This document shows, piece after piece, positions 14,294 to 22,908 of a DNA stretch of 22,908 bases. This DNA comes from a virus, in IMG/VR virus record IMGVR_UViG_3300022074_000399, positions 1 to 22,908 of that record; one strand, written 5' to 3'. The position numbers were made by a program, and so were the translations under genes. The stretch's first letter is position 1. Every line of letters begins with the position of its first letter. A model generated the notes under the pieces. The model was not told the DNA's origin. It did no database searches and was given only the letters and a program-made list of their open reading frames with translations.

Positions 14294-14818
14294 TTAATTT
14301 GGTTTACCCATCATAATCTTTTTTATCTTTTTACCGCCAATAACTCGATCATAAGTACCATCTCCATGCCATACTATCTCTTTACCTTTTAATGCATTTC
14401 TCACCGTTTCTTCATCGTCTACGACTGGAACTCCTTTAGCCTTTAATATATCGTATATCTTTCCAGATACTTCTATATAATGACCTTTTTTCTTTAAATT
14501 ATCGGCAGTGTAGTTAACTGCGGCAGATCTTGATGGTTTAGTATTATCATGACCCATACCTACAAACTTTTTTCCTCCTGCTCTATTTTTAGACATAATA
14601 ACTGCATCATCCTCTGGATCATCATCTAAATCTATAACAGTATATAGATCCGCAGCTGAAGATATAGAAGCAGGAGAGGTTACGTTTGGATGTCCACCTA
14701 TAGGTCCATAAGCAGTATCTATTAGATCAAATAGATCTTTTTCTGCTTGTTTTACTTCATCAGGTGACATCGGTAACCAAGTATTCTTTTTTTCTAAAAT
14801 AATATCGGTAAGTTTCAT
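14294..14818 (-). CDS. Conserved-looking unknown protein, 174 aa
   Basis: I do not know the family by name. The N-terminus is MKLTDIILEKK followed by a helical EVKQAEKDLFDLIDTAYGPIGGHPN (about 21-45). Then come a very acidic turn IDLDDDPEDDAVIMSK (62-77), GKKFVGMGHD (83-92), a basic region SRSAAVNYTADNLKKKGHYIEVSG, and an end with KGKEIVWHGDGTY. The layout (DLIxTAYxPIGGHPN; DxDDDPEDDA; GMGHD) looks like an acetyltransferase-like fold seen in marine phage genomes, but this is a guess. Its ATG lies one base after the stop of the 52-aa gene. It is the last gene before the gp26-like gene, so it may be late-expressed. A structural or DNA-modifying role cannot be excluded. Confidence 0.68.
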   Translation of the reverse strand: MKLTDIILEKKNTWLPMSPDEVKQAEKDLFDLIDTAYGPIGGHPNVTSPASISSAADLYTVIDLDDDPEDDAVIMSKNRAGGKKFVGMGHDNTKPSRSAAVNYTADNLKKKGHYIEVSGKIYDILKAKGVPVVDDEETVRNALKGKEIVWHGDGTYDRVIGGKKIKKIMMGKPN

Positions 14819-14819
14819 G

Positions 14820-14978
14820 CTACTTATTTATTCTATGCAATTCTTGTCGTAAATATTCTAACTCTACTTTAGCTTCACTTACGTTTCCGGAATCTAAAAG
14901 TTCTTGGATGTAAGTAACCTTTTGATATAGGGTACTATTCTTAGTGTAGTTTTCCAAAATAATTTTACTTAGTTGCAT
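14820..14978 (-). CDS. Small protein, 52 aa, overlapping the hydrolase gene
   Basis: ATG at 14978 opens a 52-codon frame starting MQLSKIILENYTKNS and ending in LYQKVTYIQELL, DSGNVSEAKVELEYLRQELHR. The end predicts an amphipathic helix with heptad-like leucines (about 38-50). It overlaps the end of the hydrolase gene by 14 nt and stops one base before the next ATG. The best evidence that it is real is a perfect copy of the recurrent motif (14989-15002), 10 nt before its ATG, inside the coding end of the hydrolase. The function is unknown. Confidence 0.6.
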   Translation of the reverse strand: MQLSKIILENYTKNSTLYQKVTYIQELLDSGNVSEAKVELEYLRQELHRINK

Positions 14979-15438
14979 CTATTACTGCTTTATTATAAAT
15001 ATCTTTAAAAACAGTAAGTGGAGTTCTATGACCCATTCCTTTTATTTCAGTCCAAGTATGAGCTAAATCTTTAAATATTTCTGTAGCTTTAGGGTCAATA
15101 ACACTATCTTCAGTACCTACTACAAAGTTTCTCTTCCAGTTCGTCTCTCCGTAAGTTACTCCTTCTGGTTCTACCGTTCTACTATGTAATGCAGGATTAA
15201 AGAGTAGTACTTCTATATCTAAATGACTACCTATAGCATCAGCAAAGTAACCACCCATACTACTACCGATAATTAAATCAGGTTTATCTATTTTAGCAGC
15301 TTCTAATAAGCTTTTAAACATTTTAGGATTAGTATAAACCATCCTCGGAGCGAAGACTCTATCAGCAACACTATTTAAAAAGTCAACTTTCGGACCACCG
15401 ACAGAAGACTCAAGACCATGTAAATACCAAACGTTCAT
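14965..15438 (-). CDS. YqiA-like alpha/beta hydrolase (putative esterase)
   Basis: The 157-residue protein begins MNVWYLHGLESSVGGPK, the HG-x-x-SS oxyanion segment of the short alpha/beta hydrolases related to YqiA (UPF0227). It has the nucleophile elbow GSSMGG with Ser60, an acidic loop VVGTEDSVIDP with Asp111 (or Asp115), and GMGHR with His137, completing a catalytic triad. Length is close to E. coli YqiA, about 190 residues. Members hydrolyse small acyl or thioesters; the substrate cannot be told. It lies between tail genes, so it is an accessory gene. Its C-terminal codons contain the recurrent motif and the start of the next small gene. A TATATTTAGGTATAAA sequence (15447-15462) stands 8 nt before its ATG. 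It has no signal peptide, so it should act in the cytoplasm. Confidence 0.8.
   Translation of the reverse strand: MNVWYLHGLESSVGGPKVDFLNSVADRVFAPRMVYTNPKMFKSLLEAAKIDKPDLIIGSSMGGYFADAIGSHLDIEVLLFNPALHSRTVEPEGVTYGETNWKRNFVVGTEDSVIDPKATEIFKDLAHTWTEIKGMGHRTPLTVFKDIYNKAVIDATK
14989..15002 (-). promoter_or_regulatory. Recurrent motif ATATTTATAATAAA, copy inside the hydrolase gene
   Basis: The copy encodes part of DIYNKA at the end of the hydrolase and lies 10 nt before the ATG of the 52-aa gene. The identical sequence and spacing elsewhere indicate that it is placed for the small gene, not kept by the hydrolase sequence alone. Confidence 0.55.
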
Positions 15439-15446
15439 ACTGTAAC

Positions 15447-15462
15447 TTTATACCTAAATATA
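15447..15462 (-). promoter_or_regulatory. Candidate promoter TATATTTAGGTATAAA upstream of hydrolase
   Basis: It lies 8 nt before the ATG at 15438. Related sequences precede the genes starting at 16317 (TATATTTAAGTATAAT) and 3004 (TATATTAGTATAAT). All three genes are preceded by an intergenic gap. The promoter role is inferred from this similarity. Confidence 0.4.
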
Positions 15463-15507
15463 AGAAAAATAACGCAGAAAAACAACTTTTCTTTGTTAAT
15501 AAGGTTA

Positions 15508-15536
15508 GGATCAGGGGGCAGGACGCCCCCATCTCC
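15508..15536 (-). other. Strong GC-rich hairpin between two accessory genes
   Basis: GGGGGC and GCCCCC form a 6-bp stem with a 5-nt loop, extended by outer pairing of GGA(G)AT with ATCC. It stands out in this AT-rich genome. It begins 14 nt downstream of the 255-aa gene stop. There is no T run, so it is not a typical intrinsic terminator. It could be an mRNA 3' end, a processing signal or a small structured RNA. Confidence 0.6.
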
Positions 15537-15549
15537 AGGTTATGAATCT

Positions 15550-16317
15550 TTATGCGTTAATAACGTAATCTCTATATTGCCACTTAAGGACATCAATATT
15601 ACTCATTCTTACTTTTTCGTATACTCTAGGAGTTTCTCCGTAAGTACTAATCTCTATATCAGCAGACTTTCCGGAAGCAGTTTTAGAAAGAATCTTAGCA
15701 GAAGTAATACCTCTCAAAGTCCAATCCCATCTAAGATCAATAGAACCTTTCTTATCCTTATCAAATACTAACCCTTCTCCTTCTAGTAAATTTTTAGCTT
15801 TAGTTAAATAAGTTTCATTTTTCTCATCTTTTAACTTCTGAATATCACCTTCAGCTAACCATTTAGCTTTTTGGGCTGCAGAATACTCTTCTTTGAACGA
15901 TTCTTTATAGGAGTTAAACTTAGCTATAATATCATCTCCATAATCTAATAATACTTTAGCAACTTCTCCAGCGGTAAATAATCTTTCAAGTTCCCACTGA
16001 GAGTTATCATTAGTAGAGTACATACTAGTTTCAATATTAGTAAACTCTCCGGTTTTCCAATCATCTCTAAATCTTAGAGTAATCATTTCTTTATCGTAAT
16101 TATATTCCTTATGAGGACGTTTTACTACAAAGGAAGTACCGTAATCATGGTCGAAATATACATCATCTAGAGTAAACTCTCCTCCGAAATATTCTTGAAT
16201 AATTTCGAAGTACATAGAATCTCTCTTCTTTTCAACTTCATTAAAAGTTTCAGTAAGTAAAGCAAGCTCTTCTTGCTTTTTTTCGATAATCTGATCGATA
16301 ATTTGTGCTTTTGTCAT
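15550..16317 (-). CDS. Unknown protein with helical N-terminus, 255 aa
   Basis: I do not recognise the family. The first 35 residues (MTKAQIIDQIIEKKQEELALLTETFNEVEKK) predict a coiled coil. The middle (45-110) is aromatic and acidic with FGGEFTLDDVYFDHDYG and a K-R-P-H-K-E-Y segment. A second charged helix spans about 125-170. The last 70 residues, with IDLRWDWTLRG, KILSKTASGKSADIEI and VLKWQYRDYVINA, alternate like beta strands. There is no signal or membrane segment. The gene stands alone between a hairpin and the 53-aa gene, with candidate promoter TATATTTAAGTATAAT 21 nt upstream. Its location among tail genes suggests a virion or assembly role, but nothing proves it. Confidence 0.7.
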   Translation of the reverse strand: MTKAQIIDQIIEKKQEELALLTETFNEVEKKRDSMYFEIIQEYFGGEFTLDDVYFDHDYGTSFVVKRPHKEYNYDKEMITLRFRDDWKTGEFTNIETSMYSTNDNSQWELERLFTAGEVAKVLLDYGDDIIAKFNSYKESFKEEYSAAQKAKWLAEGDIQKLKDEKNETYLTKAKNLLEGEGLVFDKDKKGSIDLRWDWTLRGITSAKILSKTASGKSADIEISTYGETPRVYEKVRMSNIDVLKWQYRDYVINA

Positions 16318-17290: not shown

Positions 17291-17304
17291 TTTATTATAA
17301 ATAT
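17291..17304 (-). promoter_or_regulatory. Recurrent motif ATATTTATAATAAA before tail tube
   Basis: The copy lies in the 38-nt gap between sheath and tube genes, 11 nt before the tube ATG, and contains TATAAT. With the terminator after the tube gene it could give a short tube-only transcript. Confidence 0.58.
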
Positions 17305-19093: not shown

Positions 19094-19107
19094 TTTATTA
19101 TAAATAT
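19094..19107 (-). promoter_or_regulatory. Recurrent motif ATATTTATAATAAA before tail sheath
   Basis: The copy lies 21 nt before the sheath ATG in a 146-nt gap without genes. The longer spacer differs from the 9-11 nt seen at other genes, so it would fit a promoter better than a ribosome-binding element. Confidence 0.55.
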
Positions 19108-19931: not shown

Positions 19932-19946
19932 TTTAATTATAAATAG
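19932..19946 (-). promoter_or_regulatory. Recurrent motif, variant CTATTTATAATTAAA
   Basis: It stands 10 nt before the ATG at 19921 and has one extra T compared with the main form. It again contains TATAAT in the sense direction. Confidence 0.52.
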
Positions 19947-19951
19947 TCTAA

Positions 19952-20092
19952 TTATATAGTTCTAAATCTTCTTCTATCGTTCCAAGTTACTCTTTTACCT
20001 TGGCTCATAAATGCTTTATCTTTAATTCTATCGTTAAATTCATTACGTAGAGCATTTAATTGATTATTACCATTAGCTTGTTTACTATTCAT
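19952..20092 (-). CDS. Small basic protein, 46 aa
   Basis: ATG at 20092 begins a 46-codon frame that starts one base after the cytochrome stop. The protein is polar (MNSKQANGNNQLNALRNEFND) with a basic end (SQGKRVTWNDRRRFRTI). It has no signal or membrane segment. Tight coupling to the cytochrome gene and a stop 5 nt before the next motif copy support it. The function is unknown; the Arg-rich end could bind nucleic acid. Confidence 0.58.
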   Translation of the reverse strand: MNSKQANGNNQLNALRNEFNDRIKDKAFMSQGKRVTWNDRRRFRTI

Positions 20093-20093
20093 T

Positions 20094-20774
20094 TTACTTT
20101 AAATCTTTTAAACGTTTATTTAAGTCTTTTTTAAACTCTTTTAGTTTTTTATCAACTTTTTTCTTTACTTTATTATCAATTAAAGTATTCATTTCTCCAT
20201 CAACTCTATCTTGATCCATATGTAACTTTTTCATTAAGTATAAATTAGTAGATTGTGTTTTAGCAGTTATTTCAGTTATAGCTTTTAAACCTACATAAAA
20301 AGCATAAATAGCTACAGTCAATATAACCAAACAAATTGCTATAAGTATGTAAATGTAAGTAGGGGTGGGAGTATTATTAACAACTACTTGACCTCCTGGA
20401 GCTGCTACCGGTGCTACTACATTTGCAGCTTCAATTTTTTTAATTTTCCACTGACTTAAATACTCTATAATATCATTTAATTCTTCATCTTTTAAAAACT
20501 GGTACCCAGGCATAGCTGCTCTATTGTATTCTTCCCATATTTCAACAGCATGAGGGTCACCTGCATCTATAAGTGCCTTAGAATTATAAATCCATTTTTT
20601 AGTCCATTCTGCTCCTTGAAGTTCTATAACATCTTGTAGAGGAGGCCCTACTAATTTTTTATCCATTTTATGACAAGCAGCACAATGAGTATTAAATAAT
20701 TGCTTGCCTTTTGCATAGTCTTGACCATAAGTAAAACTACTCAATACAACCAAAAAAATAAAAAGTTTTTTCAT
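20094..20774 (-). CDS. Membrane-anchored c-type cytochrome (auxiliary metabolic gene)
   Basis: The 226-residue protein has an N-terminal signal sequence (MKKLFIFLVVLSSFTYGQ, cut near 17-18) and a class I cytochrome c domain at 20-108. The heme site is C31-A-A-C34-H35, followed by GPPLQDV, the W-T-K-K-W-I segment, and Met88 in AAMPGYQFL as likely axial ligand. The domain ends in DIIEYLSQWK. Such domains with GKxLFxxHCAACHKxDKKLVGP are, as I know them, typical of Bacteroidota respiratory chains. A Pro/Ala/Val/Thr linker (116-139) leads to one transmembrane helix (140-162). A cytoplasmic, Lys-rich helical tail (about 175-226) follows. The topology would put heme in the periplasm and the tail in the cytoplasm. 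It follows the DUF2061 gene after 3 nt and has its own motif copy, so it is probably expressed with late genes. Confidence 0.9.
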   Translation of the reverse strand: MKKLFIFLVVLSSFTYGQDYAKGKQLFNTHCAACHKMDKKLVGPPLQDVIELQGAEWTKKWIYNSKALIDAGDPHAVEIWEEYNRAAMPGYQFLKDEELNDIIEYLSQWKIKKIEAANVVAPVAAPGGQVVVNNTPTPTYIYILIAICLVILTVAIYAFYVGLKAITEITAKTQSTNLYLMKKLHMDQDRVDGEMNTLIDNKVKKKVDKKLKEFKKDLNKRLKDLK

Positions 20775-20777
20775 TAA

Positions 20778-20999
20778 TTATTCTTTATTATAAATAGTAT
20801 TTTGTTTCGATTTTTTATATAAAATCCATGTTCTCTCGTATGAAAAATATCCAATAGTTTTTAATACTGTATCGATACTTCCTACTGCTAAACCAAATTT
20901 TAAACTACCTGTGATTGCCCAGCTAACTAATACGGTAATACTGGTAGCTATGACTCTCCAAATTAAAGTTTTAATAATAGTTTCTTTATAACTTACCAT
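20778..20999 (-). CDS. DUF2061-type small membrane protein, 73 aa
   Basis: The protein matches the DUF2061 pattern: KETIIKTLIWRVIATSITVLVSWAITGSLKFG at 5-36, then AVGSIDTVLKTIGYFSYERTWILYK. It has two hydrophobic segments (about 14-30 and 36-52) and a basic end. Family function is not known. I recall DUF2061 genes next to APS kinase and sulfate-activation genes in bacteria, which fits the APS-kinase-like gene three genes upstream. It overlaps the nucleotidyltransferase gene by 14 nt, and a GAGAGG sits directly before its ATG. Its end codons (TIYNKE) hold the motif copy for the cytochrome gene. Confidence 0.8.
   Translation of the reverse strand: MVSYKETIIKTLIWRVIATSITVLVSWAITGSLKFGLAVGSIDTVLKTIGYFSYERTWILYKKSKQNTIYNKE
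20784..20797 (-). promoter_or_regulatory. Recurrent motif CTATTTATAATAAA before the cytochrome gene
   Basis: The copy lies inside the last codons of the DUF2061 gene and 9 nt before the cytochrome ATG. It is identical to the copy at 10809-10822. It suggests that the cytochrome is controlled like the tail genes and not only with the upstream cassette. Confidence 0.55.
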
Positions 21000-21339
21000 C
21001 CTCTCTCATTTTAGCTCTAATTTTAGTAGCTGATATTTCTTTTATATCTTGAGGAGGAACATGTTCTACTATATCATACCCAACTCCTCTTCCGTAATTT
21101 ACTGATTCTATATCTGGTATAATTATAACTTTAACTCTACCTTCTTTTATAAGATCGTGTAAAACTGTCTCTATATTCTTTTTTATAACTTCTGATGACC
21201 AGGGTTGATTTTCGTTTACCTCTATGTCTCTAATAGCTATACAAACGTTTTTTCCTGTTTTTAATCTTTGATCTATTAACCATTGATGACCTTCATGCCA
21301 AGGTTGCCATCTACCTATAAACATACTATATTTTTTCAT
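20986..21339 (-). CDS. Small nucleotidyltransferase (HxGH superfamily), 117 aa
   Basis: The protein carries the signature of the nucleotidylyltransferase superfamily: MFIGRWQPWHEGHQWLID at 6-23, with H15-E-G-H18, and the C-terminal ISATKIR (102-108). The GRxQPxHxGH form resembles NMN/nicotinate adenylyltransferases; cytidylyltransferases and ATP sulfurylases share the fold. At 117 residues it is shorter than most of these, though compact NTases of about 130 residues (TagD-type) exist. It joins a nucleotide to a phosphate-bearing substrate, which cannot be named. It is overlapped by 14 nt on each side by neighbouring genes, and AAAGGA before its ATG is a possible Shine-Dalgarno. Together with the kinase and phosphatase it looks like a small activation pathway. 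Confidence 0.82.
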   Translation of the reverse strand: MKKYSMFIGRWQPWHEGHQWLIDQRLKTGKNVCIAIRDIEVNENQPWSSEVIKKNIETVLHDLIKEGRVKVIIIPDIESVNYGRGVGYDIVEHVPPQDIKEISATKIRAKMREDGKL

Positions 21340-21673
21340 ATCCTTTATCTCTTTCTAAGTTAATACCAATTGCTCTTTCTCCTGGGTTGTTTGGGTCCAT
21401 ATCATTTATAAGATATCTAGGCCCTCTTTCGATACCCATAAGTAAATTGTCATAAGGTATATCATTCGTTTGTAACTCCCATTCAGTATGAACTACCATA
21501 GATTTAGGTCTAGCTGTAGTTAGTATAATCATATGACCTTCTTTTTTCTTTTCTATTAGAAAACTTTTAGTAGATTCTATTACTTCGACAGGAGATTCCA
21601 TATACGTTTCAAATTTTCTATACTTAAAAATAGTACCGTCTATGTCTACGAAATACGTATTAAATTTTTTCAT
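21326..21673 (-). CDS. HAD-superfamily phosphatase, 115 aa
   Basis: The protein has motif I VDIDGTIF with nucleophile Asp10 and Asp12, motif II IILTTARP with Thr52 or Thr53, and a terminal INDMDPNN with Asp91 and Asp93 as the metal-binding motif IV. Lys57, or Arg86 in RGPRYLIND, may serve as the basic residue. It is short, so it has at most a tiny cap. HAD enzymes of this type dephosphorylate sugars, nucleotides or phosphorylated intermediates. It is overlapped by 14 nt at both ends, by the kinase and the nucleotidyltransferase genes, so translation is coupled. Its substrate probably belongs to the same pathway as these neighbours. Confidence 0.85.
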   Translation of the reverse strand: MKKFNTYFVDIDGTIFKYRKFETYMESPVEVIESTKSFLIEKKKEGHMIILTTARPKSMVVHTEWELQTNDIPYDNLLMGIERGPRYLINDMDPNNPGERAIGINLERDKGYEKI

Positions 21674-22145
21674 CTATTTCTTTTACTATTATCTTTAATG
21701 ATTCTAGAGGATTATCTTTAGTGGTATTAATATTAGTAAAATTATCGGTAGGTACTTTATACTCTTTTACATGAAAATGTTCTCTACCTCTTTTTTCTTG
21801 ACTTATATCATAATGAATAAAATATTCTTTAATATCTTCTCCTAAAATATTTTTAAATTCTTCTCTCTGATCCCTATAAGGAGAAACTAAAGATACAATA
21901 ACATCTTTCCCTTGATTATGCAAATAATGAGCTATTTTTTGAGCTGCATCTATATTAGCTCTTCTTCCTTTTTCTGAATAATCCTTATTAGCAAATAACT
22001 CTCTCATTTCATCTCCATCTATTCTGAAAGCTTTATATCCCCTATTATTATCTTTATCATTTTTAATATCCTCTAAATAATCTTTTAAGAGATTACCTAA
22101 TACTGTCTTACCTGATCCGGGTTGTCCTGTTAACCAATATATCAT
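21660..22145 (-). CDS. cysC: APS-kinase-like P-loop kinase (CysC family)
   Basis: The 161-residue protein has Walker A GQPGSGKT at 7-14, then the APS kinase signature RIDGDEMREL at 41-50 followed by SEKGRRANI at 57-65, and a strand ending in VIVSLVSPYRDQRE. This order and the DGDxxR plus a K-G-R-R-x-N-I element are those of adenylylsulfate kinase, about 175-200 residues, which makes PAPS from APS. A related phage nucleoside or sugar kinase cannot be ruled out because the P-loop region (WLTGQPGSGKT) differs from the usual GLSGSGKS. It begins 2 nt after the glycosyltransferase stop and overlaps the phosphatase gene by 14 nt. No ATP sulfurylase of normal size is present. Confidence 0.8.
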   Translation of the reverse strand: MIYWLTGQPGSGKTVLGNLLKDYLEDIKNDKDNNRGYKAFRIDGDEMRELFANKDYSEKGRRANIDAAQKIAHYLHNQGKDVIVSLVSPYRDQREEFKNILGEDIKEYFIHYDISQEKRGREHFHVKEYKVPTDNFTNINTTKDNPLESLKIIVKEIDEKI

Positions 22146-22147
22146 AA

Positions 22148-22908
22148 TTATTTAAAAAATTTGCCGTCCCAATTTAACTTTTCAGGAGATAAATGAACAC
22201 AGTAAGATTGTAAAGAAACTATTTGATAAAACATTTTAGAAAATATCCAATCATCATGACCTGCATTTTTAGATAATGACGGATAAACGTGATGTAAATC
22301 AGGATAAAGCTCTAAAAAAGTAGGCATATGCCATAATTGAAAATAACCGTATCCTTTAAATCTCTGTACTATATTATCAGATTTATCAAAATACTTTTGA
22401 GGATTAAAATCTCTAAAATCCTCATCTTCACCTACATTAACTCTACCCATAGTATATAAGTTTACTGCCCTATATTTACCTTCATCGGTATATTCCATAT
22501 ACTGCCTGAAAGGGCCGACTATTTCTAAGCTTTCTACTGAGACGCATTTTCTTTTAACAGTACCTATTATTTGAGGTCTGTTTACTCTTCTGCCGTTTTC
22601 ATCGACATACCTTTCGTCAGTAGGAAATGTATCAGGAAAATTATTAGGAAGTAAGACATCTGCATCAATATGCAAATACCATTCTTTATCATAACCAATA
22701 TGGTCGATAGCTTCATTTATTGCACATCCTTTAGCAAATTGTCTATCTAAAAGAGTTTTTGAATAAATTACTTCGATACCGTGTTGTTTACAAAGAGCTA
22801 TAGTACCTTTATCTTCTTTAGTAGTAATTACCGTCCAACGTTTAAAAAAACGTTTATTAGGAATACAGTACTTAAATAAATGTGCGTAATTTACACATAC
22901 CGTAATAG
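22148..22908 (-). CDS. Glycosyltransferase (GT-A type), partial at its 5' end
   Basis: The frame is open from the right edge of the window, so the start is missing and about 252 residues are visible. They begin with ITVCVNYAHLFKYCIPNKRF, typical of the first strand of GT-A enzymes, followed by WTVITTKED and a DRQFAKGCAINEAIDH segment. Then comes the DxD metal site in WYLHIDADVLLP (visible residues 76-87). Later parts hold GYGYFQLWHMP and KNAGHDDWIFSKMF, similar to the acceptor and catalytic region of family 2-like transferases. A TTG at 22673-22675 inside the DxD segment is not the real start. The enzyme transfers a sugar to phage DNA, virion protein or host surface glycan. It leads the tightly coupled cassette. 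Confidence 0.8.
   Translation of the reverse strand, partial: ITVCVNYAHLFKYCIPNKRFFKRWTVITTKEDKGTIALCKQHGIEVIYSKTLLDRQFAKGCAINEAIDHIGYDKEWYLHIDADVLLPNNFPDTFPTDERYVDENGRRVNRPQIIGTVKRKCVSVESLEIVGPFRQYMEYTDEGKYRAVNLYTMGRVNVGEDEDFRDFNPQKYFDKSDNIVQRFKGYGYFQLWHMPTFLELYPDLHHVYPSLSKNAGHDDWIFSKMFYQIVSLQSYCVHLSPEKLNWDGKFFK

Follow-up and report, generated by a model that had tools for sequence, protein, structure and literature searches.

Known phage auxiliary genes belong mostly to photosynthesis, carbon, nucleotide, and sulfur metabolism. Cyanophages carry auxiliary genes for electron carriers, such as plastocyanin (petE) and ferredoxin (petF), and to our knowledge carriers of the aerobic respiratory chain have hardly been reported among phage auxiliary genes. 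Neither class I cytochromes c nor auxiliary genes for electron carriers are new as kinds. As for cytochrome c motifs in phages, within the open-access journal literature searched, they are found in published soxD genes only (PMC8190135), and no report of a phage-encoded respiratory-chain cytochrome c was found in the same literature. A study surveying nitrogen genes of ocean viruses notes that no cytochromes or similar carriers were seen in its phages (PMC8115048).

The closest described cellular system is ActA of the Flavobacterium johnsoniae alternative complex III. Its N-terminal domain holds the sixth heme, is membrane-anchored and mobile, and is unresolved in the map; the proposal is that it shuttles electrons by moving between ActE and cytochrome aa3 (PMC8552683). 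When ActE is deleted, transfer to aa3 goes on, presumably straight from ActA (PMC8552683). The extra ActA domain appears to be a functional replacement for the cytochrome c domain of caa3 oxidase (PMC5928083).

The window analyzed here (the whole stretch of viral DNA, 22,908 nucleotides) contains a gene for a putative membrane-anchored cytochrome c. Like the petE and petF products, its protein would be a small phage-carried electron carrier sustaining host electron flow; unlike these soluble photosynthetic proteins with copper or iron-sulfur, it is a heme protein of predicted respiratory role with a membrane anchor. With phage SoxD (PMC8190135) it has in common a cytochrome c motif in a phage-encoded protein, whereas SoxD serves sulfur oxidation, lacks the heme motif in some copies, and differs in family and role.

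Protein layout, fold, and relation to ActA

The cytochrome ORF starts with ATG and encodes 226 aa without an internal stop. The match of the product to Pfam Cytochrom_C (PF00034) exceeds the family gathering cut-off. The gene and the elements of the protein are as follows.

20094..20774, minus strand: cytochrome c gene (ORF call; PF00034, E=2.3e-13; 6BTM chain A, ActA, 2.3e-25)
20721..20774, minus strand: signal peptide, residues 1-18 (MKKLFIFLVVLSSFTYGQ), read from the sequence, with a predicted cleavage site
20670..20684, minus strand: heme attachment motif CAACH, residues 31-35, read from the sequence
20511..20513, minus strand: Met88, presumed distal axial heme ligand, conserved in 33/35
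20361..20438, minus strand: flexible linker rich in Ala, Pro, and Val, residues 113-138 (from sequence; low pLDDT at 121-132)
20286..20360, minus strand: transmembrane helix, residues 139-163 (about), from hydrophobicity and the model helix H139-184
20097..20285, minus strand: Lys-rich helical tail, residues 164-226, from the alignment

The signal peptide, CxxCH site, Met88, and transmembrane anchor described by the initial annotation are thus all present. The signal peptide has no lipobox Cys. According to the alignment, C31, C34, and H35 are kept in all 35 relatives, G43 and P44 are likewise invariant, and Met88, judging by the class I cytochrome c fold, would be the distal axial ligand. The whole protein has one hydrophobic helix, and its topology would place the heme domain in the periplasm and the Lys-rich tail (63 residues, net charge +8) in the cytoplasm. 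Within this tail the string QSTNLYLMKKL is identical among the four phage proteins found (see below) and missing from cellular free-standing proteins, that is, phage-only. The tail is probably a phage-specific cytoplasmic anchor or assembly element.

The AlphaFold2 model built with the 35-row alignment has a mean pLDDT of 80.7, and Foldseek matches it to cytochrome c of Rhodothermus marinus (3CP5), at an rmsd of 1.3 A across 93 columns (E 1e-5). A BFVD fold search gave no significant match. Judged by sequence and model together, the 226-aa protein is a class I cytochrome c, having the heme attachment site, the distal Met position, and an all-helical fold.

By sequence, the closest solved structure is chain A of 6BTM, the F. 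johnsoniae ActA, with a match spanning query residues 16-169, i.e., the N-terminal heme domain of ActA and the transmembrane helix that follows it. The heme domain is ~35-50% identical to that of Flavobacteriaceae ActA. The phage protein and the mobile domain of ActA have in common a monoheme class I domain, a linker, a transmembrane helix, and the conserved motif CAACHKxD..GPxL. In contrast to ActA, the phage protein is free-standing and phage-borne, has no second transmembrane helix and no five-heme module, and carries the 63-residue Lys-rich tail. It has a single CxxCH, whereas the cellular ActA examined have 6-7; since it has only one such motif and ends 63 residues past the helix, it is not an ActA.

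A profile of the phage protein matches 395 of the 399 Flavobacteriaceae genomes, and among the best matches listed almost all lie in frames of ActA size (400-520 aa); these 395 genomes appear, by sequence, to encode an ActA-like protein. Several Flavobacteriaceae ActA have two tandem mobile cytochrome c domains, with 7 CxxCH in total (L012, L019, L020, L021, L026, L027, and others), and L020 holds parts of two such tandem-domain ActA genes side by side.

Insertion sites, other carriers, and phage lineage

The initial annotation had placed the cytochrome amid phage genes, and these can now be named: tail sheath (PF04984/PF17482), tail tube (phrog_4542), baseplate, gp32, UvsX-like recombinase, and 5'-3' exonuclease. 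The features that define the insertion and its upstream motif are given below.

20787..20796, minus strand: TATTTATAAT, a promoter-like motif of late type that precedes the cytochrome gene
3512, 10812, 14992, 17294, 19097, 19936, and 20787, minus strand: sites of TATTTATAAT in the window
20778..20999, minus strand: gene for a DUF2061 small membrane protein, on one side of the insertion (PF09834, 8.8e-19; syntenic in L060/L061)
19952..20092, minus strand: 46-aa ORF on the other side of the insertion, which adjoins the DUF2061 gene in L060/L061
17318..19072, minus strand: tail sheath gene, a marker of the phage backbone (PF04984/PF17482; 63% to Flavobacterium phage immuto)

Two loci, L060 and L061, have a sheath 89% identical to that of the window and no cytochrome gene. 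Their gene order is the same as in the window: the 252-aa ORF (22148-22906), kinase, HAD, nucleotidyltransferase, DUF2061, 46-aa ORF, DUF7936, and sheath. At their empty site the DUF2061 stop overlaps the start of the next gene. Because this order is kept without the cytochrome, the window represents a one-gene insertion with both flanks intact. An assembly chimera or contig breakpoint, which the initial annotation had raised as a concern, was rejected, since both flanks are syntenic with L060/L061. According to GC3, the inserted gene is phage-like (0.163 vs 0.117-0.221 in other window genes).

The proposal that the cytochrome is conserved beside the sheath was rejected: the gene was found there in 0 of 42 sheath-bearing records and 0 of 80 loci. 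The link to tail genes drawn in the initial annotation was therefore given up, as the nearest sheath relatives lack the gene, it lies next to the sheath in no other phage examined, and in the other carriers its site is in the gp32/UvsX block. The gene itself survives this result because each of four independent viral contigs has it as a clean insertion of one gene.

These four are the window and three further loci (L002, L003, and L004); scans of the viral collection with different patterns all returned the same three. Every carrier is a fragment from a metagenome, 4.6-22.9 kb long. Neither the phage protein nor its cellular relative had a match among 50,697 records of annotated phages, and PHROGs contains no family for the phage cytochrome. 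Over their full length, including the transmembrane helix and the QSTNLYLMKKL tail, the L002-L004 proteins are 60-64% identical to that of the window. In these loci the cytochrome is flanked by genes of 131 aa and 115 aa and lies upstream of gp32 and UvsX. Another locus, L197, has the same neighbors at 96-100% identity, with a gap of 530 bases between the 131-aa gene and gp32 vs 1224, and its comparison with L004 shows a clean empty site. Within this lineage the gene occurs in only 3 of the 83 loci holding UvsX and gp32.

The backbones of the two types of carriers are distant. Between the window and L004, UvsX is 22% identical, gp32 38%, and the 131-aa homologue 46%, and the sheath of the window is about 51% identical to that of the L004 lineage over the C-terminal half. 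The heme domains of the cytochromes are 82% identical. Since the carrier lineages are otherwise so distant (gp32 38%, UvsX 22%), the gene is best seen as mobile cargo, and the occurrence of similar cytochromes on distant backbones points to exchange between phage lineages. The alternative is strong constraint on the cytochrome protein. Among L002-L004, dN/dS equals 0.043-0.075 for the whole protein and 0.009-0.042 for the heme domain, so the gene is under purifying selection there; in dN/dS comparisons with the window protein, synonymous sites are near saturation. By position and selection, the cytochrome is a candidate phage auxiliary metabolic gene; it is of host type, has phage genes on both sides, and is not a contaminant.

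As for timing, the gene strand of the window has TATTTATAAT 7 times and the opposite strand never, against 0.91 expected by chance, which bears out the late-type motif that had been noted for this gene. It lies immediately ahead of the sheath gene (motif at 19097-19106), the tail tube gene (17294-17303), the DUF7936 gene (19936-19945), and the cytochrome gene, and across 80 sheath-bearing loci it is present 139 times on the gene strand vs 5 on the other. Because the motif precedes the cytochrome as it does the sheath and tube genes, the cytochrome is probably a late gene in the window phage. Late timing is not general, however, since in L002-L004 the gene follows directly after the 131-aa gene, amid replication genes, and has no late-type motif of its own. 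Apparently the late-type motif in this group of phages, TATTTATAAT has the T4 late motif TATAAATA within it in reverse complement, which makes its orientation odd relative to T4.

In comparison with Flavobacterium phage immuto (Immutovirus, host Flavobacterium sp. LMO8), the window phage has a sheath 63% and a UvsX-like protein 70% identical, and the order pol A-gp32-recombinase-exonuclease is common to both. On backbone identity and gene order, the window phage is assigned to Immutovirus-like T4-type myoviruses of Flavobacterium. Kinship to Immutovirus and the Bacteroidota-type protein suggest that this marine virus probably infects flavobacteria, in agreement with the Bacteroidota-type host named earlier. 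For the L002-L004 lineage, the nearest annotated UvsX (52%) belongs to phage Mel-JY01 (PP395634.1), whose host is recorded as Microcystis. Mel-JY01 is also close to the window in the sheath, with Microcystis being the host as recorded.

Tree position, proposed function, and alternatives

In the best tree (115 heme domains, 95 alignment columns), the four phage proteins cluster with L008, L148, and L149, which are cellular proteins of the free-standing form, at a support of 100/98 and away from the ActA domains. The AU test on the same 95 columns does not reject an ActA origin, with the phage proteins placed next to the ActA of Flavobacteriaceae (p = 0.17). The cellular members belong to a small Flavobacteriales group (188 aa in L008, 190 aa in L149, partial in L148). 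Like the phage protein, they have a signal peptide, one heme, and one transmembrane helix, as well as the QG-xx-WTK-x-W signature (QGxxWTKKW) that ActA lacks. In contrast to it, they are encoded in bacterial genomes, have no QSTNLYLMKKL tail, and show ~34-41% identity over the whole protein. An azurin-like gene adjoins two of the three cellular genes; the neighbor in L008 is PF00127. The free-standing form of the phage clade is found in three genomes, all within one nine-genome group, and in 0 of 396 genomes of an order-wide sample at a strict cut that would also hide weaker members. In Chitinophagales-type genomes, free-standing proteins (L015, L024, and L028) likewise combine a single heme with a single transmembrane helix in 176-190 aa, and their genes are close to the complex III operon, ~1.1 kb upstream of ActA. 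They cluster with the ActA of their own genomes and therefore have an origin separate from that of the phage proteins.

The reading we favor, with moderate confidence and by analogy with the host protein, is that the product is a phage-adapted, membrane-anchored monoheme cytochrome c working like the mobile heme arm of host ActA. Export and heme loading would fall to the Sec and cytochrome c maturation systems of the host, and the heme domain would swing on the flexible linker at the periplasmic face. It would accept electrons from complex III (the ActE or ActA hemes) and pass them on to cytochrome aa3 or another terminal oxidase. Late expression in the window phage would add carrier capacity that does not depend on host synthesis and would let menaquinol oxidation and proton-motive force persist while host expression is shut down. 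On this reading, the virus may supplement or steer the respiration of its host during its multiplication. The electron-carrier role first put forward for the gene remains the best reading and is now tied to the mobile heme domain of ActA (6BTM, 2.3e-25), with the function itself argued by analogy.

The ActA-arm match, the fold, the kept heme-site residues, purifying selection, and the flavobacterial host lineage count in favor of a respiratory shuttle, as do the near-universal ActA-like proteins in the Flavobacteriaceae genomes searched and the motif common with the sheath and tube genes. Against it count the absence of the rest of ActA, which may bear on docking to complex III or the oxidase, and the best tree, which pairs the phage protein with rare free-standing cytochromes and not with ActA. 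If true, the gene would provide a phage-made component of the aerobic respiratory chain, and viruses would act directly on the complex III-oxidase step in marine flavobacteria, which are major degraders of algal matter. The phage protein would also be a natural minimal ActA arm for probing how alternative complex III feeds the oxidase. A broader proposal is held only tentatively, and we consider it somewhat doubtful: distinct T4-like phage lineages, at least one of them flavobacterial, may exchange a detached ActA-like arm with a phage-specific cytoplasmic segment at its C terminus, which would override oxidase choice or feed rate via the complex III/oxidase supercomplex.

The carrier may instead serve another partner (cbb3 oxidase, peroxidase, or azurin), in redox balance or oxidative defense and not at the complex III-aa3 step. 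The position in the best tree next to free-standing cellular cytochromes, two of them adjoining an azurin gene, and the QG-xx-WTK-x-W signature common with these and not with ActA speak for such a role. We nevertheless judge it unlikely, as the ActA arm is the closest solved relative by sequence and ActA-like proteins are encoded in nearly all Flavobacteriaceae genomes searched, whereas the free-standing clade form is limited to the three genomes and was found in none of the 396 of the order-wide sample at the strict cut.

Another use of the same protein would be as a decoy with a dominant-negative effect, in which the lone arm would compete with that of ActA or fill the oxidase docking site, slowing or rerouting respiration late in infection, for example to favor lysis or exclude other phages. 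Such an effect would be consistent with an arm that comes alone, without the rest of ActA, with the late-type motif ahead of the gene, and with the apparent lethality of plasmid ActA overexpression in F. johnsoniae (PMC8552683). However, a pure decoy need not be redox-active, while purifying selection acts strongly on the heme-binding residues and on Met88, the likely axial ligand, and cells too have a free-standing form; the decoy is accordingly rated as improbable.

Packaging of the protein as a heme component in or on the virion, which the initial annotation already ranked as the less likely alternative, has in its favor the motif common with the sheath and tube genes and the structural genes nearby. 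It is very improbable, given that the signal peptide and transmembrane helix direct the protein to the inner membrane, that L060 and L061 have the same tail genes and no cytochrome, and that the gene sits amid replication genes in the L002-L004 lineage. Least credible of all is an artefact, be it an assembly chimera or a transient, functionless capture of a host gene: the gene is in only 4 viral contigs among those scanned and in no annotated phage, but its flanks syntenic with L060/L061, phage-type motif, phage-like GC3, three independent further contigs, purifying selection, phage-only conserved tail, and clean empty site in L197 vs L004 all speak against it.

Other genes of the carriers

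Several further observations concern the genes around the cytochrome. On the minus strand of the window, positions 20778-22145 hold a run of partly overlapping small genes that adjoins the cytochrome and is conserved in L060/L061. It encodes the DUF2061 membrane protein, an NMN-adenylyltransferase-like nucleotidyltransferase, a HAD phosphatase, and an APS-kinase-like P-loop kinase. The two ends of phrog_10255 match the kinase and the nucleotidyltransferase of this run.

The recombinases of the two types of carriers (window UvsX at 1134-2207 vs L004:3184-4302) are 22% identical despite homologous gp32 and neighboring genes, and this low identity therefore suggests non-orthologous replacement. 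Between the tail tube and the baseplate hub, the window has three genes (14294-16317, minus strand) of 174 aa, 157 aa (UPF0227 esterase-like), and 255 aa. They are present in L060 and missing from this position in L062-L073, which makes it a second variable cargo site.
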